From Roseithermus sacchariphilus (lineage in GTDB: Bacteria; Bacteroidota; Rhodothermia; Rhodothermales; MEBIC09517), in contig CP030158.1 in NCBI GenBank assembly GCA_003285105.1, forward strand, positions 4,202,449 to 4,266,448: a stretch of DNA of 64,000 nt, in the 5' to 3' direction. Positions 9,413 through 62,768 of this stretch are shown here, in pieces. Numbering within the stretch: the stretch's first letter is position 1; each line of letters begins with the position of its first letter. The translations under genes were made by a program, and so were the position numbers. Below the pieces are notes generated by a model that saw only the letters and a program-made list of their open reading frames with translations, was not told the origin of the DNA and ran no database searches.

Positions 9413-10489
9413 ATGCCCCCCGAAGAAACCATCGTCACGCTGGACGTCCCGCCCGGCTACCAGGAACACGAGCGGCTGGACGTCTACCTGACGCGCTGCC
9501 TGCCCAACGCCACGCGGGCCAAGGTGCAGCGCGGGATCCGCCAGGAGCGGGTGCAGGTCAACGGCGCGGTCGTCACCCGGCCCTCACACACTGTCCAGGC
9601 GGGCGACTGCATCGTGTGCCGCCTGCCCAAGCCGCCCCCCATCGAGGCCCGCCCCGAGCCCATTCCGCTCGACGTCGTCTACGAGGACGATCACCTGCTC
9701 GTCGTCAACAAGCCGGCCGGCATGGTGGTGCATCCGGCCTACGGAAACCGCACCGGCACGCTGGTCAACGCCCTGCTGCACCACGTCGGTGCCGGCACGC
9801 TGAACGTCGACGACGTCGAGGACGAGGAGGCCGACGAGGAGGTGGGCCTCTCGACGATGAACGCGGCACCGTCGTACGCCGGCGATCCCGGCATCCGCCC
9901 CGGCATCGTCCACCGGCTCGACAAGGACACGTCGGGGCTGCTGGTCGTGGCCAAGGACGACGAGACGCACGCCGGTCTGGCCCGGCAGTTCGCCGAGCGA
10001 ACGATCCGGCGGCGCTATCTGGCGCTCGTCTGGGGCGTGCCGGACCCGCCCGCGGGCCGCGTCGAGGCGCCGCTGGGGCGGGATCCGCGGGATCGCAAGC
10101 GGATGGCGGTGGTGCCCCCCGAGCGGGGCAAGTACGCCGTCACCCACTACGAGCTGGTCGAGCCGCTGGCTTTCACGGCCCTCGTGGCGTTCCGCCTGGA
10201 GACGGGCCGTACCCATCAGATCCGCGTCCACGCACGGCACATCGGCCATCCCGTCCTGGGCGACCCGACCTACGACGGCATGGCGATCCGTCGGGGGCCG
10301 ACGCACGGCACGCGGCAGGCGTTCTTCCGCAACCTGTTTGAGCGGATGCCGCGCCAGGCGCTGCACGCCCACACCCTCGGCTTCACCCACCCCCTCACCG
10401 GCGAGGCGCTCGACTTCTCGGCTCCGCTGCCGGAGGACATGGCGTACGTGCTGGAGCGGCTGCGCGCGGTCGACGGGGGATGGGCCTGA
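9413..10489 (+). CDS. rluD: 23S rRNA pseudouridine synthase, RluD family
   Basis: Isomerises specific uridines to pseudouridine in the large-subunit rRNA. The 358-residue product has an N-terminal S4 RNA-binding domain (residues 15-75, ERLDVYLTRCLPNATRAKVQ). The RsuA/RluD catalytic domain follows, with HRLDKDTSGLLVVAK containing catalytic Asp170, and the GRTHQIRVHARHIGHPVLGD motif. An acidic insertion (DVEDEEADEEVG) precedes the catalytic motif. Assignment to RluD rather than RluA or RluC is by S4 presence and length. The gene is followed by an 11-bp tandem repeat before a convergent membrane-protein gene. Confidence 0.92.
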   Translation: MPPEETIVTLDVPPGYQEHERLDVYLTRCLPNATRAKVQRGIRQERVQVNGAVVTRPSHTVQAGDCIVCRLPKPPPIEARPEPIPLDVVYEDDHLLVVNKPAGMVVHPAYGNRTGTLVNALLHHVGAGTLNVDDVEDEEADEEVGLSTMNAAPSYAGDPGIRPGIVHRLDKDTSGLLVVAKDDETHAGLARQFAERTIRRRYLALVWGVPDPPAGRVEAPLGRDPRDRKRMAVVPPERGKYAVTHYELVEPLAFTALVAFRLETGRTHQIRVHARHIGHPVLGDPTYDGMAIRRGPTHGTRQAFFRNLFERMPRQALHAHTLGFTHPLTGEALDFSAPLPEDMAYVLERLRAVDGGWA

Positions 10490-10505
10490 CGCGGGTGCCG
10501 GATGA

Positions 10506-10557
10506 CCGCTCCGGCACCGCTCCGGCACCGCTCCGGCACCGCTCCGGCACCGCTCCG
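10506..10557. repeat. Tandem 11-bp repeat, 4 full copies plus a partial
   Basis: Four exact tandem copies of CCGCTCCGGCA (10506-10549) and eight bases of a fifth fill most of the 69-base gap between the 3' ends of rluD and the convergent membrane-protein gene. It lies outside both coding regions. It might act in transcription termination or simply be slippage-prone filler. Confidence 0.9.
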
Positions 10558-14742: not shown

Positions 14743-14784
14743 GCACAGGCGGATGGCCTCTGGCCGATGGCTTCTGGCGGCTGC
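14743..14784. repeat. Short array of the 14-bp repeat, about 3 degenerate copies
   Basis: Three 14-base units (14743-14756, 14757-14770, 14771-14784). The middle one, CCTCTGGCCGATGG, differs by one base from the CCTCTGGCGGATGG form in the large array at 20740-21047. It lies in the gap between the MFS gene and the receptor gene, about 80 bases before the -35 box of the uptake operon. Confidence 0.75.
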
Positions 14785-14937: not shown

Positions 14938-17193
14938 ATGACCCGACCAGACACCCTCTTTGTCCTTGTACAGAGGACGTTTCTTGCCCTGGTGTTCGTG
15001 TTTCTATACTGCACCGGGATAGCCTTCGCCCAGACGGGGACGATCGCCGGGCGAGTGCTGGACGCCGCGACGGGCACCCCTCTGGCAGGCGTAAACGTGC
15101 GGCTGCTCGAAGCCTCCCTGGGCACCAGCACCGATGCCGAGGGACGTTTTACACTGATCAACGTCCCTGCAGGGGAGCATACCATCGTGGCCAGCTTCAT
15201 CGGATACGGCACCGTCTCGCGGGTGACGCGCGTGTCCGACGGAGCACACATTCAGCTTGACCTCACCATGACGGCCGAGACGCTCGGCCTGGAAAGCATC
15301 GTCGTCACCGGCGTGCGAGTGACTGAGGCGGAGCCGGGTAACCTCATCCTGACGGATCGAGACCTTTCGCGCGTTCAGGCTTCCACCCTGGCCAGTTTCC
15401 TCTCGAACCAGTCTACGGTAGCCGTCGGTGGTGGATCACCGGTGGCACAGAAAGTCTACGTTCGGGGGTTCGAGGACGTCATGCTCAACGTGCGGATCGA
15501 CGGAGCACAGAATGCAGGCGAACTCTATCACCATCAGGCCCGACTCCAGCTCGAGCCCGAGTTCATCAAGCAGATTGTGCTGGATGCAGGCGCCGGTGCC
15601 GCCACCAACGGACCGGGGGCCCTCACCGGTTCCATGCACGTCACCACCAAGAGCGCCTTCGACATGCTGGAACCTGGTCGTTCACTGGGCGCCTGGGCCA
15701 AGGGTACAGTGGGCACGAACGGCGAAAACCGGTATAAAGGCTCAGGCCTGGTCTATGGTCGCCTGACGGAGGGACTCGGTCTGATTGCCGGATTGACCTA
15801 TGAAGACGGAGGCGACTATGCCGACGGCCATGGTAACCTCGCTACTCCGACGGCCTTCGAACACTGGAGGGGCTTTTCCAAGCTCAGCGGCAACTTCGGA
15901 CCACACACGTTCCACCTGTCCTTCGAACGCCTGGATGATCAGGGGGTCTATTACGAACGCCCCAATTTGATCGGCTTCCGCGAAACGTATCAACTGGCCG
16001 ATCACGACATGGGGCGGAGCACCGTTTCGCTGAACTACTCCTACCGCCCCGAGTCGGAAACCGTCGATCTACAGACCCGTGCCTACTGGACCGAGAGCAC
16101 GTTCGAGAATGCACGGCTCTCTACGCCGGACACCTTCTACGGCAAGGGGTCCTTTGCCAGCCTGGGGTTCGAGGTGCGCAATACCTCACGGTTCGGGGCC
16201 GTCAGCCTGATCTACGGGGTAGACGGCCGCTGGGACGACGGATACGGGGCACAGAACGCCACTCCGCCACCCTTCTGGGGTACCTCCGAGCAAAGTGCCT
16301 CCGTCGCAGGCGTCTTCACCCAGGCCCATCTGCCCCTGCTCGAAGAGCGCATCGAACTGTCTGGCGGCCTGCGGATCGATCGCTACGAGCACGAGGTACT
16401 AAGCGGCGTTGGAGAAGGGGCATCGAACCACGCCGTCGGGCTCAGCCCGAACGTTGCGGCCCAGTTCGAATGGATCGACGGCCTGACAGTGCGAGGCAGC
16501 TACGCCCAGGCATTCCGTGGTGTCACGATCCGCGAAGCATTTTTCAGCAGCCTCTACACGCACCGTGGTGACCTGAAGCCGGAGCGGGCCGACAACCTCG
16601 AACTCGGGTTGCAGTTCGAGCGGGCGGGCTTTTTTGTACGCGGCACGCTCTACAGGCAGACGATCCAGAACTTCGTGGACGCTGTCTATCAAGGGGAAGA
16701 GGTATGGGGATACTGGGAAAACGTGGGCGATGCCCGCGTCGACGGCTACGAAGCCGAAGTGGGAGGCCGCTGGAATACATCTCGTTTCAGCGTCGGGGTC
16801 TGGGAGTCGGAGCCGACGTTGAACGACGAGCCCCTGACCGATGCCATGCTCGGGCTGGGTACGAGCATCGGTCGCACCTGGACAGCCCGCCTGGAACACC
16901 TCCTGGCAGCTCCCGGGATTGATCTTGTACTGATCGGTCGGTTCGTGGAGAAAGAGGAGAATACCATCGGCGAGAACGCCCCGGACAAGCCCTCGTACGG
17001 GGTCGTCGACCTGCATGCAGCATGGCAACCACAACCCCTGGATCGGATCCGTCTCGGAATTTCGGTAACCAACCTGCTGAACGAATTCTATTATGATCAC
17101 GCAACGTACTTCTGGCTACCACAGGCCCAGACGTACGTCGGCTTCCCTTCCCGCGGACGCGAATTGCTCCTTTCGCTCTCATATCGCTTCTGA
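14938..17193 (+). CDS. TonB-dependent outer-membrane receptor, siderophore/metal-complex type
   Basis: A 751-residue receptor with a signal peptide ending at about residue 31. A CarboxypepD_reg-like domain follows (residues 34-115, GTIAGRVLDAATGTPLAGVNV), then a plug domain (IVVTGVRVTEAE, VYVRGFEDVMLNVRIDGAQ, GAGAATNGPGALTGSMHVTTK) and a 22-strand barrel ending in SLSYRF with terminal Phe. It imports a ligand across the outer membrane using TonB energy. The substrate is inferred to be a ferric siderophore or haem-like complex from the downstream FecCD-type ABC genes and DUF2218. It is first in a five-gene operon, with the next start 4 bases after the stop. ATG 14938 is chosen because the signal peptide begins there. 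Confidence 0.88.
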   Translation: MTRPDTLFVLVQRTFLALVFVFLYCTGIAFAQTGTIAGRVLDAATGTPLAGVNVRLLEASLGTSTDAEGRFTLINVPAGEHTIVASFIGYGTVSRVTRVSDGAHIQLDLTMTAETLGLESIVVTGVRVTEAEPGNLILTDRDLSRVQASTLASFLSNQSTVAVGGGSPVAQKVYVRGFEDVMLNVRIDGAQNAGELYHHQARLQLEPEFIKQIVLDAGAGAATNGPGALTGSMHVTTKSAFDMLEPGRSLGAWAKGTVGTNGENRYKGSGLVYGRLTEGLGLIAGLTYEDGGDYADGHGNLATPTAFEHWRGFSKLSGNFGPHTFHLSFERLDDQGVYYERPNLIGFRETYQLADHDMGRSTVSLNYSYRPESETVDLQTRAYWTESTFENARLSTPDTFYGKGSFASLGFEVRNTSRFGAVSLIYGVDGRWDDGYGAQNATPPPFWGTSEQSASVAGVFTQAHLPLLEERIELSGGLRIDRYEHEVLSGVGEGASNHAVGLSPNVAAQFEWIDGLTVRGSYAQAFRGVTIREAFFSSLYTHRGDLKPERADNLELGLQFERAGFFVRGTLYRQTIQNFVDAVYQGEEVWGYWENVGDARVDGYEAEVGGRWNTSRFSVGVWESEPTLNDEPLTDAMLGLGTSIGRTWTARLEHLLAAPGIDLVLIGRFVEKEENTIGENAPDKPSYGVVDLHAAWQPQPLDRIRLGISVTNLLNEFYYDHATYFWLPQAQTYVGFPSRGRELLLSLSYRF

Positions 17194-17196
17194 TCC

Positions 17197-18366
17197 ATGC
17201 ATGGTATGCGCCACCAATGGGGGCCGCTGACTCCGGCTCTCATGGCCGGTCTTCTTCTGCTGGGCGGCTGCAGCCCCGAGCCCCAGACCCATGAATCCGG
17301 CATTGCCCCGGACACGTCGGTGACGTCGGCTGCGCTCGTCGTCACCGACGTGTCCGGGCGCGAGGTGGTGCTCGCCGGACCGGCCCGGCGCGTGTTGCTG
17401 GGTGAAAGTCGCCTGCTGCTGGCGCTCTCGATCGTGCACCCTCACCCGGTCGACGTCATCGCCGGATGGCAGGGAGATCTGGCCCGGCTCGACCCAGTCA
17501 CCTATGAGCGCTATCGAGCGGCCTACCCACGCCTCGACAGCATCCCTGTCGTCGGGCTCATCGGTGAAGAGTCCTTCTCCATCGAAAAGGCCCTTGCTAC
17601 TGAACCCGACGTGGCGATCCTGAGCGGGGGGCATGGTCCGTCCGAAGCATCGGTCACGCTGATTCGCCAGTTGGAAGCGGCCGGTATCCCGGTCGTCATC
17701 ATCGACTTCAACACGCACCCGCTCCAGCATACGCTCCCGAGTATTCGACTGCTTGGCGCGGTGCTGGGGCAGGAAGAACGGGCCAACGCCTACGCCGCGT
17801 TTTACGAGGAGCGCATGAACCGCATCAAGGAACGCCTTGACCACACCCCGGGCGAGCGGCCCTCCGTCTTGATGCACATGCATGCGGGCGCCTGGGAATG
17901 CTGCCGGTCCCCCGGTTCGGGCAACCTGGGTGAACTGATTACCTTTGCAGGAGGGCGAAACATCGCAGCAGATGTGATCCCGGGCGCGCTGGGCTTACTC
18001 AACCCCGAATATATCCTCAGCCAGAACCCGGAGGTCTACATCGGAACGGGCATGCCCGGAAGGAGCCACCAGGGGGGGCTGGAGTTGGGCACGGGAGTCT
18101 CCCCAGAGACCGCACGCACCAGCCTTCAGAACGTCATCCGGCAACCTGAACTCGCAGAACTGTCCGCCGTGTTCAACGGTCGCGTGTACGGACTCTGGCA
18201 CAACTTCTACACGTTGCCCGTGAACGTGCTGGCTGCGGAAGCCATGGCCCGCTGGTTTCATCCGGATCTGTTTGCGGACGTGGACCCGGCAGCGACGTTG
18301 AAGGAGATCAATGAGCGCTTCCTGAGGGTCCCCCTGGAAGGCACGTTCTGGATCGGACTCGAGTAA
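17197..18366 (+). CDS. Iron-complex ABC transporter substrate-binding lipoprotein
   Basis: A 389-residue TroA/FecB-type periplasmic binding protein. The signal ends in a lipobox (LLLLGGC), so it is lipid-anchored. The two-lobe fold is recognisable: TDVSGREVVLAGPARRVLL near the start, AGWQGDLARLDPVTYERYR, FSIEKALATEPDVAILSGG and a C-terminal ALYG-like GRVYGLWHNFYTLPVNVLAAEAMARWFHP. This last block is shared with siderophore-binding proteins linked to proteobacterial TonB receptors. It shuttles the chelate from receptor to permease. A Cys pair (WECCRSPGSG) in lobe 2 is unusual. Confidence 0.85.
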   Translation: MHGMRHQWGPLTPALMAGLLLLGGCSPEPQTHESGIAPDTSVTSAALVVTDVSGREVVLAGPARRVLLGESRLLLALSIVHPHPVDVIAGWQGDLARLDPVTYERYRAAYPRLDSIPVVGLIGEESFSIEKALATEPDVAILSGGHGPSEASVTLIRQLEAAGIPVVIIDFNTHPLQHTLPSIRLLGAVLGQEERANAYAAFYEERMNRIKERLDHTPGERPSVLMHMHAGAWECCRSPGSGNLGELITFAGGRNIAADVIPGALGLLNPEYILSQNPEVYIGTGMPGRSHQGGLELGTGVSPETARTSLQNVIRQPELAELSAVFNGRVYGLWHNFYTLPVNVLAAEAMARWFHPDLFADVDPAATLKEINERFLRVPLEGTFWIGLE

Positions 18367-18426
18367 GCCTCGATCACACCCGCTACGCGTTCGCTGGCCC
18401 CTGCGTGCTCACTGCTCCGCCTCGAC

Positions 18427-19536
18427 ATGCCTGCCGACGACCCGATCAGCGTCTCCGAGGATCATCGCATCACACGCCTCGCCCCCCCTGCCCCCTCGAT
18501 GCCCGACGTGCTGACGGCCTACGCACAGGCCATGCGCCGTCGTGTTCTGGTCGTCGCGCTCCTGAGCGTGGGATGCCTTCTCACTTTTGGCCTCGACCTC
18601 CTGATCGGTCCGTCGGAACTCGCCCCGAGGCTGGCTCTGCAGGGGCTTTTCGAACCGGAAACACTCAGCCGCCCTCAGGCCATCATCATCTGGGAAGTGC
18701 GGCTGCCCACAGCGCTCATGGCCTTGCTCGTAGGGGCTGCGCTTTCGCTGGCCGGCGCCGAAATGCAAACGATTCTCAACAACCCGCTGGCGAGCCCGTT
18801 CACGCTCGGCATCTCGGAAGCCGCCTCCCTGGGAGCTGCCCTCGCCATCATGCTGGGCATCGCGATACCGGGCCTGGCAAGCACCTGGCTCGTGCCGATC
18901 AACGCGTTTCTGTTCGCCTTCGGGGCCGTACTGCTGCTACAGATGCTAGCACGCGTACATGACGCGAGCGCGCATACCCTGATCCTCTTCGGCATTGCGC
19001 TCGTCTTTCTGTTCGATGCCCTCGTCGCCCTCATCCAGTTCGTGGCCAGCGCCGAAGCATTGCAGCAGTTCGTATTCTGGACCCTGGGAAACCTCTCGCG
19101 GGGAGGCTGGGACGGCGTACGTGTCCTGTCGCCTCTTCTGGCCTGCATCGTTCCGTTCTCGCTGGCCGGAGCCTGGCAGATGACGGCCCTGCGCCTGGGC
19201 GAGGACCGTGCACGTAGCTTCGGGGTCAACATCCGGCGCGTCCGCTTCATGAGCCTCGTACGCGTGAGCCTGCTTGCATCGGGCGCAGTGGCCTTCGTGG
19301 GTACCATTGCTTTCGTGGGGCTGGTCGGCCCCCACATCGCCCGGATGCTCATCGGAGAAGACCACCGATTCTTTCTACCGGCGAGCCTGCTGACGGGCGC
19401 ACTCGTCCTATCCCTCGCCTCGATCACCAGCAAACTGATCATCCCAGGCGTGTTGATCCCGGTCGGTCTGGTGACGTCACTGATCGGCGTGCCCGTCTTT
19501 CTCATCCTCGTCCTGCGCAAACGGCGAGCCCTATGA
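18427..19536 (+). CDS. FecCD-family ABC transporter permease
   Basis: A 369-residue inner-membrane permease of the BtuC/FhuB/FecD family with about ten hydrophobic helices. Diagnostic stretches are WEVRLPTALMALLVGAALSLAGAEMQTILNNPLASPFTLGIS near residues 78-120 and the ATPase-coupling region VAFVGTIAFVGLVGPHIARMLIGEDHR. A 45-residue hydrophilic N-terminal extension precedes the first helix. One permease gene suggests a homodimer. Its stop overlaps the ATPase start (ATGA), indicating translational coupling. Confidence 0.92.
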   Translation: MPADDPISVSEDHRITRLAPPAPSMPDVLTAYAQAMRRRVLVVALLSVGCLLTFGLDLLIGPSELAPRLALQGLFEPETLSRPQAIIIWEVRLPTALMALLVGAALSLAGAEMQTILNNPLASPFTLGISEAASLGAALAIMLGIAIPGLASTWLVPINAFLFAFGAVLLLQMLARVHDASAHTLILFGIALVFLFDALVALIQFVASAEALQQFVFWTLGNLSRGGWDGVRVLSPLLACIVPFSLAGAWQMTALRLGEDRARSFGVNIRRVRFMSLVRVSLLASGAVAFVGTIAFVGLVGPHIARMLIGEDHRFFLPASLLTGALVLSLASITSKLIIPGVLIPVGLVTSLIGVPVFLILVLRKRRAL

Positions 19537-20369
19537 GCACAGAGTGTACCCTGGACGCGCCGACCCTCGCCATCGAGCGTCTAACGGTCGGGTATGGGAA
19601 CACGCCCGTCATCGAGCACCTGACGCTCGACCCGATCGAGGCGGGATATGTCGTCGCGCTGGTCGGCCCGAACGCAGCCGGGAAATCGACGCTGCTCCGG
19701 GCGCTGGCCGGGTTGATTCCGGCAGTCGGACGGGTAACCCTGGGAGGGCGCGACCTGCTGAGCATGTCGCTTCCTGAGCGTGCCACACACGTTGCCTTCA
19801 TGCCCCAGACTCTACCACAGGGAGTTGCGCTGACCGTATTCGAATCCGTTCTGAGTGCGTTGAAGGCCTCGCCGCTTCACGAAAACCATCCTACGGACTC
19901 CCGCCGCCTGCGGCACCATGCCGTGCATACGCTCGAACGCGTAGGCATTGAACATCTAGCACTCGTGCCCCTCGATCATCTATCGGGCGGACAGCGCCAG
20001 CTCGTTGCCCTAGCTCAGACGCTCGCGCGTGATCCCGTCTTGATGCTGCTCGACGAACCGACGAGCGCCCTTGACCTGTTGCACCAGGTGAGCGTCCTGC
20101 AACTGGTTCGGTCCCTGGCTCGGGACGGGCGCATCGTCGTGCTGGTGCTGCATGATTTGAACCTGGCAGCCCGATGGGCCGACCACGTCATTGTGCTGCA
20201 TCAGGGCACCCTGTTTACGGCCGGCCCCCCGGAGGAAGCCATTACCCCCCGGGTCCTGAGCCGCGTATATGGCGTATCCGCTCGCGTCGAACGGTGCTCC
20301 GGGCACTTCCTGCAAGTGATGGTTGATGGTCCTCTGGACCCTCCGCTTCACCCATCCCGTCGCGTCTGA
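19533..20369 (+). CDS. ABC transporter ATP-binding protein, iron-siderophore type
   Basis: A 278-residue ATPase powering the FecCD permease. It has Walker A GPNAAGKST, Q-loop MPQTLPQG, signature LSGGQRQLVALAQTLARDP, Walker B VLMLLDEP, D-loop SALD and the switch His in VLHDLNLAARWAD. Sequence after the switch (HQGTLFTAGPPEEAITPRVLSRVYGV) is typical of FecE/FhuC/BtuD subunits. It starts inside the permease stop codon. The Walker A has Ala-Ala where many relatives have Gly-Ser; this is tolerated in FecE-type proteins. Confidence 0.93.
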   Translation: MSTECTLDAPTLAIERLTVGYGNTPVIEHLTLDPIEAGYVVALVGPNAAGKSTLLRALAGLIPAVGRVTLGGRDLLSMSLPERATHVAFMPQTLPQGVALTVFESVLSALKASPLHENHPTDSRRLRHHAVHTLERVGIEHLALVPLDHLSGGQRQLVALAQTLARDPVLMLLDEPTSALDLLHQVSVLQLVRSLARDGRIVVLVLHDLNLAARWADHVIVLHQGTLFTAGPPEEAITPRVLSRVYGVSARVERCSGHFLQVMVDGPLDPPLHPSRRV

Positions 20370-20402
20370 CGTGCTTCATCACAAATCACTCACGTATATG
20401 CC

Positions 20403-20711
20403 ATGCCCGTGTATATCTCCGAATCACACGTCAAAACGGCCACCCCGTCCCGTTACATCAAGCGTCTGTGCAAGCACTTCGCCCACAAGGTCCCGGCTAC
20501 CTACACGGACGATTATGGACGTGCCGATTTTCCCTTCGGGGTCTGTATGATGCGAGCCTCGGACGGCCTCCTCGTATTGCACGGCGAGGCGGACACCAGA
20601 GCCGCCCTCGATCGCCTCGAATGGGTGGTCACGACACACCTCGAAGGGTTCGCCCGGCATGAATCGCTGGACATCCAATGGACCCCGATCCAGCCGCAGG
20701 AAGCGCCCTGA
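20403..20711 (+). CDS. DUF2218 family protein
   Basis: A 102-residue cytoplasmic protein matching the DUF2218 pattern: SRYIKRLCKHFAHKVPATY, a GRADFPFG turn, and a C-terminal ALDRLEWVVTTHLEGFARHE helix. The family is commonly found beside siderophore uptake or reduction genes in other bacteria, and this is the fifth gene of such an operon. A role in intracellular handling of the imported complex is inferred only. Conserved His, Cys and Asp residues (CKHFAHK) could bind metal. The 14-bp repeat array begins 28 bases after its stop. Confidence 0.8.
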   Translation: MPVYISESHVKTATPSRYIKRLCKHFAHKVPATYTDDYGRADFPFGVCMMRASDGLLVLHGEADTRAALDRLEWVVTTHLEGFARHESLDIQWTPIQPQEAP

Positions 20712-20739
20712 TTCCCGCCCCGTTTGTCGTGATACCTTG

Positions 20740-21047
20740 CCTCTGGCGGATGGCCTCTGGCAGATCGCCTCTGGCGGATGGCCTCTGGCGGATGGCCTCT
20801 GGCGGATCGCCTCTGCCGAATCGCCTCTGGCGGATCGCCTCTGGCGGATCGCCTCTGGCGGATCGCCTCTGGCGGATCGCCTCTGGCGGATCGCCTCTGG
20901 CGGATCGCCTCTGGCGGATCGCCTCTGGCGGATCGCCTCTGGCGGATCGCCTCTGGCGGATCGCCTCTGGCGGATCGCCTCTGGCGGATCGCCTCTGGCG
21001 GATCGCCTCTGGCGGATCGCCTCTGGCGGATGACCTCTGGCGGATGG
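20740..21047. repeat. Tandem array, 22 copies of a 14-bp unit
   Basis: The unit is CCTCTGGCGGATCG. Copies 7-20 are identical, while copies 1-6 and 21-22 carry substitutions (GG or GA at the end, CAGATCG, CCGAATCG). This edge-degenerate pattern is typical of arrays expanded by unequal exchange or slippage. Each junction contains GGCG-GAT-CGCC, a small inverted repeat. It lies between the DUF2218 gene and the GH3 lipoprotein gene. Because 14 is not a multiple of 3 and the unit has no stop, several frames stay open; none has codon evidence of being a gene. The remaining 166 bases to 21213 hold no recognised gene. Confidence 0.95.
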
Positions 21048-21213
21048 CGTCTCGGCACTTGCCCATCGACCATCAGAGCTCGCCTCTGCGCCGTAACTTC
21101 ATGCCGACTCTTCGGCGGGCGGGCGACACTTTGGGAAGGCCGCGTTATCTTTCCCTCTGCGCCGGCCTCGCCGGCACGCAGGCTCCTCGTCGTCCGTTCC
21201 GGTTGCTGCCCCC

Positions 21214-24135
21214 ATGTCGTTGCCTCGCCCACGCACCGCGCTCTTTCTGCTGGTCCCCCTCACCATCATCGGCTGCTCGCTACTCGGGATGCGGGCCTCC
21301 GCCCCGGAGCCGCCGCCGGAGGACTTCTGGGACGCCTCCAGCGCCTGGACCGCTCGCACGCTGGAGACGATGACGCTGGAGCAGAAGGTCTCTCAGCTCT
21401 TTGCCACCCGCGCCTACGGGTACTATACCAGCCAGGACGACCCCGCCTACCGCAGGCTCGTGGACCTCGTCGAGCGGTTCGAGATCGGGGGCGTGATCTT
21501 CTTCCAGGGCGAACCCGTCGCCCAGGCGCTCCTGGCCAACGACCTGCAGCGCCGCGCCCGGGTGCCGCTGCTGATCTCGCAGGACATGGAGTGGGGCCCC
21601 GGCATGCGCGTCGAGCGGACGACCACCTTCCCCCGCACGATGGCCACCGGCGCCACGCGCAACCCCGACTATGCCTACACCGTCGGCTACGTGACGGCCC
21701 GCGAGGCCCGCGCCCTCGGCACCCACCACGTCTATGCCCCCGTCGCCGACGTCAACAACAACCCGCTCAACCCGATCATCAACGTCCGCTCCTTCGGTGA
21801 GGACCCCGTGCTCGTGGCGGACATGGTGACGGCCTTCGTGCGCGGCATGCAGGACGGGGGGGTGATGGCGACGGTCAAGCACTTCCCCGGCCACGGCGAC
21901 ACGGACGTGGATTCGCACCTCGACCTCCCGGTCATTCCCTACGACCGCACCCGGCTCGATTCGCTCGAACTCGTCCCCTTCCGGGCGGCCATTCGTGGCG
22001 GGGTGATGAGCGTGATGACGGCGCATCTGGCCTTCCCCCGGATCGAGGAGGACCCCAACGTACCCGGCACCCTCTCGCCGCGCATCACGACGGACCTGCT
22101 GCGCCGGGACCTCGGCTTCCGGGGGCTGGTGGTGACCGACGGCCTGGAGATGCAGGGCGTCACGAAGCACTTCGGCGTGGGCGAGGCGGCCGTCCGCGCG
22201 CTGGAGGCCGGTGCCGACGTGCTGCTGCTCTCGACGGACGAGTACGCCGCCCGGGCCGCCGTGCTGGAAGCCATCCGCACCGGCCGGCTGAGCGAGGCAC
22301 GCATCGACCGCTCGGTGCACCGCATCCTGCGAGCCAAGGAATGGGTCGGCCTGCCGGAGCAGCGCGCCGTGGACCTCTATGCCATCGGCCGGCACGTGCA
22401 CACCGCTTACCATCAGGCCCTCACCGAGGTCGTCGCCCGCGCCTCGCTGACGCTGCTGCGCAACGAGGGCGACCTGCTCCCGCTGCTGAACGCGCCGCGC
22501 CTCTTCAGCGTGACCCTGAGCGACAGCGACGACCCCTCCACCGGGCAGGCGTTCCTGCGGCAGCTCCGCGCCCACGGCACGATGCGCAGCCTCCAGACGC
22601 GCCTGCTGGACCGCCGCTCGGACGAGGACGACGCGGAGGCCGTCCTGAACGCCGTCGCCGGCAGTAGCGCCGACGTCGTGCTCGTGCCGACCTACCTCTA
22701 CGTGCGCGACAGCAGCGGCCGCATCGGGCTCTCGGACGAGCACCGGCGGTTCCTGGACCGGCTGATCGCGCTGGGCAAGCCGGTGGTCGTGATCTCCTTC
22801 GGCAACCCCTACATGGTGATCGGGCTGGCGCGGCAGCCGGCGGTCTACCTGGCTGCCTACGGAGCCAGCGAGGCCTCGCAGAAGGCCGCCGCCCAGGCCC
22901 TCTTCGGGCAGGCCCGCATCGACGGCCGGCTGCCCATCACCATCCCCGGCGTCCATGCCTTCGGCGAGGGGCTAACGATCGAGCAGGCCACGCTGCGACG
23001 CGGCTTCCCCGAGGAGGTCGGCCTGCGCTCCCACGCGCTGCTGCGCATCGACTCGCTGCTGCGCGCGGCCATCGACGAGCGGGCCTTCCCCGGCGCGGCG
23101 GTGGCCGTCGGACGCGCCGGCGTGCTGGCCAAGCTCGACGGCTATGGCTACCTCACCTACGACTCCGAAACCCCCGTCACCCCGCGCACCCTCTTCGACC
23201 TGGCCTCGCTGACGAAGGTCGTCGCCACGACGACCGCTGCCATGAAGCTCTACGAGGAGGGCCGCCTCGACCTGGACGCGCCGGTCGTCCGCTACCTGCC
23301 GGCCTTCGGCGCAAACGGCAAGGACCGCATCACCATCCGCCAGCTCCTCACCCACACCAGCGGCCTCGTCCCCTTCCGCCCCTTCCACACGCTCGGCCTC
23401 ACCACGCGAGACGCCGTCATCCAGGCGATCCTGAACGAGACGCCGGTCTATGAGCCGGGCACGGACATGCGCTACAGCGACCTGGGCATGATCACGCTGG
23501 CGCTCGTCATCGAACGCATCACCGGGCAGGACTTCGCCACGTACGTCAGGGAGGCGGTCTTCGAACCGCTGGGCATGACACACACCGGCTTTCGCCCGGT
23601 CGGGCAGACGGACGCGAGCGTCGTGCCGACGGAATACGACAACGGCTTCCGCAAGCGGCTCATCCAGGGGGAAGTGCACGACGAAACGGCCTGGATCCTG
23701 GGCGGGACGGCCGGCCACGCCGGGCTCTTTTCCACGGCCGAAGACCTGGCGCGCTTCGCCCACATGCTGGTCAACGAGGGCCGGGTCAACGGGCAGGCGT
23801 TCCTCCAACCCGAGACGATCCGGCTCTTCACCACACCCGTGGCCCCCGGCGTGCACACCCGGGCGCTGGGCTGGGACACCCGCAGCCCCGAGGGCTATTC
23901 CTCGGCCGGGCAATACTTCGGGCCGCGTAGCTTCGGCCATACCGGCTTCACCGGCACCTCGCTCTGGATCGACCCGGACCAGCAGCTCTATGTCATCCTG
24001 CTGACCAACCGCGTCTACCCCACCCGCGAAAACCGCGCCCACATCGCCATCCGCCCGCAGGTGGCCGACTTCGCCTACGAGGCCATCGCCGGGCCGCCCG
24101 CGCCGCTGCTGCCCGGGCACGCCTCGGCGGAGTGA
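21214..24135 (+). CDS. Lipoprotein fusing GH3 beta-N-acetylhexosaminidase and serine beta-lactamase-like domain
   Basis: A 973-residue protein with a lipobox (IIGC) near residue 20. Residues 45-390 form a GH3 catalytic domain: KHFPGHGDTDVDSHLDLP supplies the His-Asp pair of NagZ-type enzymes, and VVTDGLEMQGV holds the nucleophile Asp309. A GH3 C-terminal-like domain follows to about 590. Residues 600-960 are a class C beta-lactamase/DD-peptidase-like domain with SLTK (Ser665, Lys668), Tyr754-Ser-Asp in place of YxN, and His909-Thr-Gly in place of KTG. It likely acts on peptidoglycan fragments or other amino-sugar polymers in the envelope. This fusion is known in Bacteroidota. Confidence 0.88.
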   Translation: MSLPRPRTALFLLVPLTIIGCSLLGMRASAPEPPPEDFWDASSAWTARTLETMTLEQKVSQLFATRAYGYYTSQDDPAYRRLVDLVERFEIGGVIFFQGEPVAQALLANDLQRRARVPLLISQDMEWGPGMRVERTTTFPRTMATGATRNPDYAYTVGYVTAREARALGTHHVYAPVADVNNNPLNPIINVRSFGEDPVLVADMVTAFVRGMQDGGVMATVKHFPGHGDTDVDSHLDLPVIPYDRTRLDSLELVPFRAAIRGGVMSVMTAHLAFPRIEEDPNVPGTLSPRITTDLLRRDLGFRGLVVTDGLEMQGVTKHFGVGEAAVRALEAGADVLLLSTDEYAARAAVLEAIRTGRLSEARIDRSVHRILRAKEWVGLPEQRAVDLYAIGRHVHTAYHQALTEVVARASLTLLRNEGDLLPLLNAPRLFSVTLSDSDDPSTGQAFLRQLRAHGTMRSLQTRLLDRRSDEDDAEAVLNAVAGSSADVVLVPTYLYVRDSSGRIGLSDEHRRFLDRLIALGKPVVVISFGNPYMVIGLARQPAVYLAAYGASEASQKAAAQALFGQARIDGRLPITIPGVHAFGEGLTIEQATLRRGFPEEVGLRSHALLRIDSLLRAAIDERAFPGAAVAVGRAGVLAKLDGYGYLTYDSETPVTPRTLFDLASLTKVVATTTAAMKLYEEGRLDLDAPVVRYLPAFGANGKDRITIRQLLTHTSGLVPFRPFHTLGLTTRDAVIQAILNETPVYEPGTDMRYSDLGMITLALVIERITGQDFATYVREAVFEPLGMTHTGFRPVGQTDASVVPTEYDNGFRKRLIQGEVHDETAWILGGTAGHAGLFSTAEDLARFAHMLVNEGRVNGQAFLQPETIRLFTTPVAPGVHTRALGWDTRSPEGYSSAGQYFGPRSFGHTGFTGTSLWIDPDQQLYVILLTNRVYPTRENRAHIAIRPQVADFAYEAIAGPPAPLLPGHASAE

Positions 24136-34391: not shown

Positions 34392-37013
34392 TCATTTCAT
34401 GAGCACCATGCTGCGGGTCTGCATCTGGTTGCCCTGTGTGAGCCGGTAGAGGTAGACCCCGCTCGACACCGGCGCCCCGGCGTTGTCGCGGCCGTCCCAC
34501 TCGACGGTGTACGTGCCGGCCGGCAAGGCCCCCTGGATCAGCGTCCGCACCTCCTGACCCAGCAGGTTGTAGACGACCAGCGACACCGGCGAGGCCTCGG
34601 CCCGCGTCAGTTCGAAGGCGATGGTCGTCGTCGGGTTGAACGGGTTCGGGTAGTTCTGCTGCAACCGGAAGCCGGTCGGCAGATCGTCCGTACCGTTCGT
34701 GCCGGTGGACAGCGTGGTGCCGTCACTCAGGACGACCACCTTCGTCGCCGTCGGCGTCGTGGTGCCGGCGGGGGTGTACCCGGCCTCGGCCGACGCCTCG
34801 ACCTCGGCGTACACCTCCACGCGCGCCCCGGCCGCGATCTGCTCCAGGTCGATCACCTCGCCCGCGGCATTCACGACGAGCGTGTTTTCATCGACGGCGA
34901 AGGCGGCGGCGTTCAGCGTGATCCGGCCCGAGGCCCGGGCGCTGACCGTCCCGGTGGTGATCAGGTGCTCGACCTGCTTGATGCGCCGGGCCACGAGCCC
35001 GATGCCGGCCACCAGCTCGGCCTTGATCCGCACGTACTGCCCTTCGGCCAGATCCGCGAAGGAGATCTCCGAGCCGTCGTAGCCATAGACCTTCGTGGCG
35101 GCATCGACGTGGAAGGTCAGCCCGAACACGGTGAGCGAATCGGCCCCGATGGTTTCGATCACGCCGGCGATGGAGATCTCCAGCTGCGGCAGATTCAGGA
35201 TGCGGATGTGCTGGGCGATCAGCGTGCCGTCGGCATGCATGATCCCGCGCACGTGCACGATCTGCCCGGCCGCCAGCGCCGACGGATCCACCCGGCCTTC
35301 TCCCTCCTTCACGATCTTCGTCTTCGCCGTGATCTGGAAGGTGTAGCCGAGCACCATCATCTGCCCGTCTCCCACCTCCGTGATCGCTCCGGTGAGGTTC
35401 ACGTTGGCGACGACCGGCACTCGCACCTTGATCTCACGGGCCAGCAGCGAGCCGTCTCCCTGGACGTAGCCCTCCACCTTCGCCATCATCCCGGCGGACA
35501 GGTCCGCCAGCATCAACGGCCGGCCGTAGGCATCCTCGATCTCGGCATTCTCGGGTACGTAGAACTGCAACCCGGCGATGGCGATGAGCCGCTGCTCCAG
35601 GTCGACGCCGGTGATGCGGCCGACGACCTCGACCTCGCGCTCGTCGTCTTCGAGTTTGATGTAGAGGGCGTAGAGGAGTCCGTCGCTACCCAGCTTGGCC
35701 CGGACCTCGACGTAGTCGCCCACGACCAGGTCTTCGGGCGCCAGCCGCCGGTCATCGCCCTTAATGACCGTGGCGGCCGTCAGGTAGAAGGTGATGGTGT
35801 TGACGGTGATGGAGCTGTCCGTGCGGGCCTGCACGTAGCCTTCCGTCTCGACGATCCCTTCGGTGGTGTCCTCATCGTCGTCGTCGTTGATGACCTTGAT
35901 GCGCAGGGCATAGACGGGGCTATCTGCGCGGAACGCGCCCACCACCCGGACCACCTGCCCGGGCATCAGCTCGCTGAAGCGGATCGGGCGGTTGTCCTCG
36001 TCGCGCACCTGCGTCCAGGGCAGCGTGAAGTACTCCGTGTCGCCGACGGTGAGGCTGGTGTCGGTGAGGGCTTCGATGACGCCTTCGACGCGCAGCAGGG
36101 TGAAGCCGGGCAGGTCGTTGTCGTCGTCATCGTCCACCTTGATGCGGACGGCCACCAGCACGCCGCGCTCCGTGTAGAAGAGGCCTTTGACCTCCACCAC
36201 CTGCCCCTCCATCAGCTCGCTGAACCGGATGACGTTGCGGTCGTCATCCATCACGACCGTGAGCGGGGTGACGGTGAACGTCATCTCCAGCACAGTGATG
36301 GTGCTGTCGGTCAGGCCGGTGATGCGGCCTTTGAACTCCACCTCCCGCACGGCACCCGGCGCGTCCCGGCGCTTGACCTCGATCTCGGAGGCGTAGAGCA
36401 CCCCGTCCCGGTAGACGCCTTCGACCTCGACCAGCACGCCGACCAACAGCATCGAGAAGGGCACGTCCACGCCGTGCACCTCCACCTCGGTCCGGTTGGT
36501 GACCCGGAAGGTCTGCCCGACCACGGTGATGGAGGTATCGGTCAGCGCTTCAATCAGGCCTTTGACCTCCACCTCCTCATCGTGGTCGTCCGAGCCGCTG
36601 TCGTCCGAGCCGCTGTCGTCCGAACCGCTGTCGTCTGAGCCGTTGTCGTCCGAGCCGTTGTCGTCCGAGCCGTTGTCGTCCGAGCCGGTCTTGACCTTGA
36701 CCTGCCGGGCGACGTACTCCGTGGCGTTGGGAGCCCGGAGGCCGTGCACCTCCACCCACCAGCCGACTTGCAGATCGGCCCATTGCAGGGAAACCTCCAG
36801 ATCGCTACGCAACTCGGTCGCGTCGGTGAGCATGAACTCGACGTCTCCGACGGTCAGCGTGGTGGAGGTCAGCGCCTGGATACGCCCTTCTACATGGATC
36901 TCGCCGGTCTGCGCCCGGAGCGCGGCGGGGAGCGCGATGGGGAGCGCCAGCATGAGCAGCAGGGCTACGGCCAGCCGGTTCATGTGTCGGGGAAGTCGTA
37001 GTAACCCGTTCAT
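34392..37013 (-). CDS. Secreted DUF5666 nine-repeat protein with type IX secretion C-terminal domain
   Basis: An 873-residue exported protein. A signal peptide covers residues 1-35. Nine tandem beta-rich units of about 65-75 residues follow, each built as [V/L]xGxI-x-LT-[D/S]TS[I/L]TV ... GQ[V]V[E/R]V-G ... AxxIKV; this is the DUF5666 (OB-like) pattern. Between units 1 and 2 is an acidic GSDDN/GSDDS linker of seven pentapeptides. The C-terminal 90 residues contain LQQNYPNPFNPTTTIAFEL and a final YRLTQGNQMQTRSMVLMK, a type IX secretion sorting/FlgD-like domain, so the protein is probably released or attached at the cell surface. Function unknown; adhesion or ligand binding is possible. Confidence 0.85.
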   Translation of the reverse strand: MNGLLRLPRHMNRLAVALLLMLALPIALPAALRAQTGEIHVEGRIQALTSTTLTVGDVEFMLTDATELRSDLEVSLQWADLQVGWWVEVHGLRAPNATEYVARQVKVKTGSDDNGSDDNGSDDNGSDDSGSDDSGSDDSGSDDHDEEVEVKGLIEALTDTSITVVGQTFRVTNRTEVEVHGVDVPFSMLLVGVLVEVEGVYRDGVLYASEIEVKRRDAPGAVREVEFKGRITGLTDSTITVLEMTFTVTPLTVVMDDDRNVIRFSELMEGQVVEVKGLFYTERGVLVAVRIKVDDDDDNDLPGFTLLRVEGVIEALTDTSLTVGDTEYFTLPWTQVRDEDNRPIRFSELMPGQVVRVVGAFRADSPVYALRIKVINDDDDEDTTEGIVETEGYVQARTDSSITVNTITFYLTAATVIKGDDRRLAPEDLVVGDYVEVRAKLGSDGLLYALYIKLEDDEREVEVVGRITGVDLEQRLIAIAGLQFYVPENAEIEDAYGRPLMLADLSAGMMAKVEGYVQGDGSLLAREIKVRVPVVANVNLTGAITEVGDGQMMVLGYTFQITAKTKIVKEGEGRVDPSALAAGQIVHVRGIMHADGTLIAQHIRILNLPQLEISIAGVIETIGADSLTVFGLTFHVDAATKVYGYDGSEISFADLAEGQYVRIKAELVAGIGLVARRIKQVEHLITTGTVSARASGRITLNAAAFAVDENTLVVNAAGEVIDLEQIAAGARVEVYAEVEASAEAGYTPAGTTTPTATKVVVLSDGTTLSTGTNGTDDLPTGFRLQQNYPNPFNPTTTIAFELTRAEASPVSLVVYNLLGQEVRTLIQGALPAGTYTVEWDGRDNAGAPVSSGVYLYRLTQGNQMQTRSMVLMK
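36586..36690 (-). repeat. Seven tandem 15-bp codon repeats (GSDDN/S/H)
   Basis: Seven in-frame 15-base units encoding Gly-Ser-Asp-Asp-Asn/Ser/His inside the DUF5666 protein gene. The variation is at the fifth codon. Such repeats can change copy number by slippage without breaking the frame. Confidence 0.92.
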
Positions 37014-49748: not shown

Positions 49749-50951
49749 ATGGCCCGCATCGTCCTCCGCGCCCGCAAAGACAAGCTGATCCGCCAGGGCT
49801 ACCCCTGGATCTTCGCCAACCTGATCGACCGCGTCGAAGGCGACCCGGCCACCGGCGACGTGGTCCAGATCGCCGGGGCCGACGGGCACGTCTACGGGCA
49901 GGGCTTCTACCACGCCGACTCGCTCATCGCCGTACGCTTCCTCACCAGCGACCCCGACCGCCCCATCGACGACGCCTTCTTCCGCGCCCGCCTGGAACGG
50001 GCCTTCCGGCTGCGCGAAACCGTCTTCGGCGAGACGACGCACTACCGCCTGGTCTACAGCGAAAGCGACGGCCTGCCGGGCACCATCGTGGACCGGTACG
50101 GATCGGTGCTGACGTGGACGTCCGTCTGCGCCGGCATGGAACACCGCCGCGAACGGCTGCTGGACCTGCTGGAGGACCTCGTCCGCCCCCGCGCCATCGT
50201 CGAACGCAACGACTCCTGGCTCCGCGAAAAGGATGGCCTGGCGGAGTCCACCGGCGTGCTGCGGGGGACCTGCGACGCCCCGGTGGAGATCGACGAGGAC
50301 GGCGTTCGCTTCGCCGTGGACGTGCTCGAAGGACCGAAGACGGGCTTCTTCATCGACCAGCGGCTGCACCGGCAGATGGTGCGGCGGGTGGCGGCCGGAC
50401 GAAGGGTGCTCGACGTGTTCTGCGCCGACGGCGGGTTCGGCCTCCACGCGGCCGCCGGCGGGGCGGCCTCCGTCCACTTCCTCGACGTCTCCGGCCGTGC
50501 CCTGGAGCGGGTCCGGCACAACGCCGCGCTGAACGGCGTCGCCGACCGCTGCTCCGTCGAGCAGGCCAACGCCCTGGATCGCCTCGGTGACTACGTGGCC
50601 GAGGGCCGCACGTATGACCTCGTCGTGCTCGACCCGCCGGGCTTCGCCCGTCAGCGCCGCGAGGTGGACGACGCCACGCGGGCCTATCAGCGCATCAACA
50701 TCACGGGCCTGCAGCTCCTCCCTCCCGGCGGGCTGCTGGCCACGGCCTCGTGCTCCCAGGCCGTCAGCGAGGAGGCCTTCCTCAAGATCATCCGCTACAG
50801 CGCCCGCAAAGCCGGCGCCCGGCTGCGCCTGCTCTACCGCGGCGGCCATCCCCCGGACCACCCCGTCCTCGACGCCATGCCCGAGACGGCCTACCTCAAG
50901 TTCTTCCTGTTCGAGAAGCTCGACGACGAAGCCCCGGGGGATGGTTTCTAG
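49749..50951 (+). CDS. Class I SAM-dependent rRNA (cytosine-C5) methyltransferase, RlmI-like
   Basis: A 400-residue methyltransferase. An N-terminal PUA domain (LIRQGYPWIFANLIDRVEG), an RlmI central domain (YRLVYSESDGLPGTIVDRYG) and a Rossmann fold with GPKTGFFIDQRLHR, RVLDVFCADGGFGLHAA (SAM site), DLVVLDPPGFAR (catalytic region) and ATASCSQ (catalytic Cys of the m5C type). It probably methylates 23S rRNA. ATG 49749 is the start by alignment; upstream in-frame sequence is only the antisense of the PorV gene. It is convergent with the DUF819 gene across a hairpin of heptad repeats. Confidence 0.9.
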   Translation: MARIVLRARKDKLIRQGYPWIFANLIDRVEGDPATGDVVQIAGADGHVYGQGFYHADSLIAVRFLTSDPDRPIDDAFFRARLERAFRLRETVFGETTHYRLVYSESDGLPGTIVDRYGSVLTWTSVCAGMEHRRERLLDLLEDLVRPRAIVERNDSWLREKDGLAESTGVLRGTCDAPVEIDEDGVRFAVDVLEGPKTGFFIDQRLHRQMVRRVAAGRRVLDVFCADGGFGLHAAAGGAASVHFLDVSGRALERVRHNAALNGVADRCSVEQANALDRLGDYVAEGRTYDLVVLDPPGFARQRREVDDATRAYQRINITGLQLLPPGGLLATASCSQAVSEEAFLKIIRYSARKAGARLRLLYRGGHPPDHPVLDAMPETAYLKFFLFEKLDDEAPGDGF

Positions 50952-51015
50952 CTCCTGGCAGCTCGCTGCTGGCTGCTGGCCCTCAGCCCGTAGCCCTCAG
51001 CCAGCAGCCAGTAGC
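50952..51015. repeat. Heptad repeat array forming a 15-bp hairpin
   Basis: About nine tandem 7-base units (e.g. CTGCTGG, CTGCTGG, CCCTCAG, CCCGTAG, CCCTCAG, CCAGCAG, CCAGTAG). The two halves are inverted: 50965-50979 pairs with 51001-51015 over 15 bp with one G-T wobble and a 21-base loop. It fills the 67-base gap between convergent genes, where a bidirectional terminator is expected. It shares heptads (TGAGGGC, read on the minus strand) with the array at 62692. Confidence 0.8.
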
Positions 51016-62688: not shown

Positions 62689-62691
62689 GCC

Positions 62692-62768
62692 GGGCTGCGG
62701 GCTGTGGGCTGACGGCTGCGGGCTGATAGCTGAGGGCTAAAGGCTGAGGGCTAACGGCTGACGGCTCG
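62692..62768. repeat. Heptad repeat array, 11 units
   Basis: Eleven contiguous 7-base units with consensus GGGCTGA (GGGCTGC, GGGCTGT, GGGCTGA, CGGCTGC, GGGCTGA, TAGCTGA, GGGCTAA, AGGCTGA, GGGCTAA, CGGCTGA, CGGCTCG). It fills the 87-base gap between the convergent CBS and cytochrome/TPR genes. It holds stop triplets in several frames. It may act as transcription or translation insulation, but this is not shown. Confidence 0.88.

Follow-up and report, generated by a model that had tools for sequence, protein, structure and literature searches.

A 14-bp tandem array of Roseithermus sacchariphilus as a probable local expansion within a genome-wide family of intergenic heptamers

Described heptamer repeats and the present case

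The STRR heptanucleotide repeats of cyanobacteria are tandem, dispersed heptamers, and differ in both sequence and phylum from the family described here. Heptamers are over-represented among the longer repeats of many bacterial genomes, for no accepted reason, according to a study that also refers to Calothrix heptanucleotide repeats (PMC4692102). The GGGNATC heptamers of Xanthomonas and Nostoc, which vary in copy number, resemble our family in their 7-nt unit, in their dispersed and mainly intergenic location, in their scarcity between divergent genes and in their frequent position near stop codons (Rehm et al., 2015, PMC4692102). By contrast, the consensus found here is [GC]GCTGAC and GGCTKCT, long arrays of 14-bp dimers are common, and runs of GG are present rather than GGG, so that the four GGG tracts expected of a G-quadruplex are lacking; no copy of the target array contains GGG, where a G-quadruplex would call for at least three G in each of four units. 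The TAACTGA repeats of Beggiatoaceae, cyanobacteria and some Bacteroidetes, which form long arrays in some of the latter, are likewise intergenic heptamers with a sporadic distribution in the tree (MacGregor, 2015, PMC4679880). In Beggiatoaceae they stand just before start codons (PMC4679880), whereas our family has a different unit and crowds gene 3′ ends; the target unit, CCTCTGGCGGATCG, when compared with these repeats, is not TAACTGA.

A literature search returned nothing on heptamer repeats in Rhodothermales. The target array, found in a 64,000-nt stretch of DNA (hereafter the window), is thus probably a further case of a known but little-studied class, the bacterial heptameric repeats, and the single array that had been flagged appears to be an ordinary expanded member of its family.

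A genome-wide family of intergenic heptamers

The family was sampled in sixty evenly spaced 20-kb stretches (1.2 Mb, or 1.26 Mb with the window), i.e. 26% of the genome. Tracts with a 7-bp periodicity numbered 52 in the sixty stretches, against 0-2 at lags 4, 5, 8, 10, 17, 19 and 20, 3 at lag 11 and 6 at lag 13; certain lags divisible by three (e.g., 12 and 15) were also rich in tracts, as expected of coding DNA. With the window included, 54 such tracts were found, where order-3 Markov surrogates of the same 1.26 Mb gave none. The commonest heptamers were GGCTGAC, CGCTGAC, GGCTGCT, GGCTGAA and GGCTTCT. Individual variants were shared by as many as 26 tracts, and this sharing suggests that the arrays have exchanged sequence or have a common descent rather than having arisen independently. 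In many family arrays, two heptamers are joined into a dimer and the resulting 14-bp unit is homogenised, as in L078 (532 bp, top 14-mer present 38 times), L063 (320 bp, 21 times) and L067 (199 bp, 13 times). The target is thus not unique in kind, and at least two other homogenised arrays (L078 and L063) are as large.

The tracts are over-represented in non-coding DNA. According to gene calls made by a script and not by a standard annotator, 52 of the 54 tracts were intergenic, in a sample that is 11.9% non-coding (p 1e-45). Of 58 distances from tract ends to gene 3′ ends, 27 were at most 10 bp, as compared with 12.2 +/- 1.7 when tracts were placed at random within these intergenic regions; of 44 distances to gene 5′ ends, 9 were. 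Tracts occupied 8 of 65 convergent, 25 of 498 co-directional and 3 of 134 divergent intergenic regions. Within the heptamer, the GCT at positions 2-4 was close to constant, with internal variation in no more than 3-4 of 44 tracts; at each of the other four positions, 19-34 tracts varied. As the phase for this alignment was picked by GCT content, the most conserved triplet was also picked without such help; 24 of the 34 untied tracts then gave GCT or AGC, its complement. A leading-strand bias, as proposed for architecture-imparting sequences, was not significant (27 G-rich tracts on the leading strand vs 15). Extrapolation gives about 200 tracts for the whole genome, which, together with the fixed GCT core, the crowding at gene 3′ ends and a tie to a second dispersed repeat (see below), makes this single contig a rich case, in which the question "why seven bases" becomes testable.

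The window itself holds a member with GGCTGAC-type heptamers at 62691..62766 (+ strand), 3 bp past the preceding gene call, and another at 50948..51015 (strand unassigned), where GGCTGCT heptamers are followed by the inverted CAGCC type. Several intergenic regions contain two inverted arrays, of GTCAGCC type and then of GGCTGAC type (L054:12098-12337, L057:8262-8605 and L086:19321-19422), which could pair into long hairpins.

The target array, its origin and competing explanations

The target lies at 20739..21052 (+ strand), where TRF reported a repeat of period 14 at 20739-21045 (21.9 copies, 96% matches, score 558). Reading it copy by copy bore out what the sequence-only reading had described, namely 22 copies of 14 bp, of which copies 7-20 are identical (20824..21019, + strand) and those at the edges carry substitutions. 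The core unit, CCTCTGGCGGATCG, also occurs as copy 5. In the left edge (copies 1-6; 20740..20823, + strand), copies 1, 3 and 4 are of the GGCGGATGG type while 2 and 6 have diverged; in the right edge (copies 21-22; 21020..21047, + strand), an GGCGGATGA type is followed by GGCGGATGG. Copies 1, 3, 4 and 22 all read CCTCTGGCGGATGG, other substitutions being found in copies 2, 6 and 21. Chance is excluded as a source of the array, since order-3 Markov surrogates (1.26 Mb) contained no tract of this kind.

Although the period of the array is 14, its unit can be read as two heptamers, GGCCTCT+GGCGGAT at the edges and CGCCTCT+GGCGGAT in the homogenised core. In line with this, self-matching was best at lag 14 and next best at lag 7 (0.45), against 0.15-0.29 at lags that are not multiples of 7. 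Beyond what a single window could tell, the 14-bp unit thus appears to be a heptamer dimer of the genome-wide family. The target heptamers themselves lack the GCT core, having GCC and GCG instead, and recur at few places in the genome; membership therefore rests on a linking tract and on the shared GGC and spacing. This tract, short and degenerate (GGCGGAT-GGCCTCT-GGCCGAT-GGCTTCT-GGCGGCT), lies at 14748..14783 (+ strand), upstream of the TonB receptor gene and about 6 kb upstream of the target, and brings GGCGGAT, GGCCTCT and GGCTTCT into one register. It is 94% identical to the target over 33 nt, and 83% identical over 36 nt to the L063 and L073 arrays (GGCTTCT/GGCTGCT). GGCCTCT likewise adjoins GGCTTCT heptamers in register at L042. 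These sequence likenesses support, without proving, that the target grew out of the heptamer family.

We consider it probable that the target is a locally expanded member of this family, grown by slippage or unequal recombination at a site where it is tolerated. An identical core with diverged edges is indeed the pattern expected of slippage or unequal exchange, and it supports the recent expansion proposed by the sequence-only reading; DNA slippage is the most likely mode of growth. From a mechanistic point of view, neighbouring GGCCTCT and GGCGGAT heptamers would have formed the 14-bp dimer, probably in the edge form, which we take as ancestral. An interior copy may then have changed from G to C at unit position 13, and slippage during replication, or unequal recombination, would have multiplied this C-13 version while older copies stayed at the edges. 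The array would have persisted in the non-coding DNA just downstream of the operon, where changes in length can be tolerated. The heptamer family, its intergenic location, the dimer structure and the homogenised core with older-looking edges are observed; the order of these events, their slippage or recombination engine and the absence of a specific function are what we infer.

This scenario bears directly on the palindrome GGCG-GAT-CGCC (GGCGGATCGCC), which had been thought to mark every junction. It occurs 15 times and in none of the edge-type copies, because it requires C at unit position 13, where the edge copies at both ends have G and GGCGGATGGCC takes its place; in the simplest reading, the edge form came first, and a single substitution created the palindrome, which was then multiplied. 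A nucleoid or regulator landing array built of this motif, as suggested earlier, would fit the 15 palindromes at exact 14-bp spacing in the homogenised part. It nevertheless becomes very improbable, given that the motif depends on a single base absent from the edge copies and was subsequently amplified, that related arrays differ in sequence, that the exact 14-mer occurs nowhere else in the 4.81-Mb genome (15 occurrences, every one within the array), and that a 14-bp step rotates each site by about 120 degrees around the helix relative to its neighbour. Nothing here shows the target to be a special protein-landing site; it may have a binding or structural role. That the array, transcribed with the operon, forms a long hairpin and so shields the mRNA 3′ end, or slows the polymerase ahead of the next gene, is decidedly unlikely. 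The + strand RNA indeed folds better than 100 of 100 shuffles (z -5.84), and the array starts just past the last gene of the operon, with no canonical terminator nearby: an intrinsic terminator (a G+C-rich stem, then a T run) was sought at 20600-21400, and promoter-like or terminator-like matches were sought near the array, and none were found. Good folding is, however, expected of any tandem repeat with an inner palindrome, here confined to the amplified core, and some other family arrays fold no better than shuffles (L067, z +0.75 and +2.57; L054, z -1.13), so that structure is not a property of the whole family; in the window, in L057 and in L065, no known RNA family reached the gathering threshold. 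As for a repetitive peptide, open frames do exist on both strands, because a unit without stop codons and of a length not divisible by three keeps them open. Such coding is hardly credible, since every added copy would shift the frame, and the long frames overlap the DUF2218 or GH3 gene, whose own frames are better supported; the earlier view that no gene can be supported within the array stands.

Neutral slippage alone does not easily account for two features of the family, namely the near fixation of GCT (variable in 3-4 of 44 tracts) and the crowding of tracts at gene 3′ ends. These leave a binding model possible, even though the target lacks GCT. According to such a model, a DNA- or RNA-binding protein would recognise the heptamer arrays, including the target, by a conserved triplet that returns at 7-bp intervals and is GCT in most tracts, and arrays at 3′ ends would act on transcript ends, transcript stability or nucleoid layout. 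The conservation of GCT by position, within and between tracts, together with the 3′-end crowding and the scarcity between divergent genes (3 of 134), argues in its favour; the same conservation could equally come from common descent of the arrays. We know of no protein that reads such heptamer arrays, which counts against the model, as does the absence of GCT from the target. Moreover, arrays of this kind are missing from most relatives in the order, and some relatives have heptamers of another sequence, which makes a conserved binding partner unlikely. A similar role was proposed for the TAACTGA repeats (MacGregor, 2015, PMC4679880); for the present arrays, we regard it as unlikely. Somewhat less unlikely, though still doubtful, is a broader view in which the heptamer arrays, with the target as an expanded outlier, would belong to a dispersed element and have a function or be actively copied: a factor would either read GCT at 7-bp steps or copy arrays along with a core of about 141 bp, giving lineage-specific heptamers at gene 3′ ends.

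The 141-bp element, relatives and gene neighbourhood

This core is a G/C-rich, hairpin-rich palindromic element of about 141 bp, present in 31 copies and 17 clusters in the 26% sample (e.g., L065:17428-18596, L057:8387-8526 and L063:4361-4749), and once as seven tandem copies at 167-bp steps. It often lies beside heptamers: 27 of 55 tracts lay within 250 bp of it, 14 of the 17 clusters had a tract at most 160 bp away (21 tracts on the same strand and 5 on the opposite one), and 13 of the 15 intergenic regions with the core also held a tract (Fisher p 2e-16). It is absent from the whole window, hence from the 250 bp around the target, whose right flank, considered as a possible dispersed element, is single-copy in the genome. 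The element had no Rfam match; being short, G/C-rich, hairpin-rich and dispersed between genes, it resembles in these traits palindromic repeats of the REP, BIME and MITE kinds, and it borders about half of the tracts but not the target. It was also found in two genomes of the same order (Rhodothermales, as are the named relatives), G010 and G022, without GGCTGAC heptamers. A general rule that the core in G010 is bordered by that genome's own heptamers was rejected, as only 2 of 6 loci had tracts within about 125 bp, and weak ones.

The GGCTGAC pattern had 190 matches in its own genome. Of 113 other genomes of the order, 3 had it, as did 6 of 391 others from a sample of the phylum; controls were near zero. 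The exact target unit is confined to the target array in its own genome. Same-order relatives nearly lack GGCTGAC heptamers, and some carry others, such as GTGCGTA/GTGCGTG in G010 (L129:8199-8264 and 10152-10203) and TGGGTAC, GAGTTCC and AGCCAGT in G011 (L146, L147).

The array starts 28 bp past the stop codon of the DUF2218 gene, the last of an operon at 14938..20711 (+ strand), outside the array. Pfam domains confirm the uptake operon noticed earlier, with a TonB receptor, a periplasmic binding protein (PF01497), a FecCD permease, an ABC ATPase and DUF2218; iron, which had been named as its substrate, is a candidate beside haem and cobalamin. The array ends about 165 bp ahead of the next gene on the same strand, which encodes a GH3 domain fused to a beta-lactamase-type domain (21214..24135, +, by Pfam). 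Among 29 same-order loci with a homolog of this gene, none showed an array of the target kind and a few showed 8-bp or 21-bp repeats. As DUF2218 and the ABC ATPase are absent from the 1.5-kb flanks of these loci, synteny is lost and gain or loss of the array is not readable there.

Two other tandem repeats were seen in the window. At 36585-36687, about 7 copies of GTCGTCCGAGCCGCT form a 15-bp repeat, a multiple of three and apparently in a coding frame, and at 10505-10557, 4.8 perfect copies of the 11-bp ACCGCTCCGGC lie seemingly directly past a gene end.
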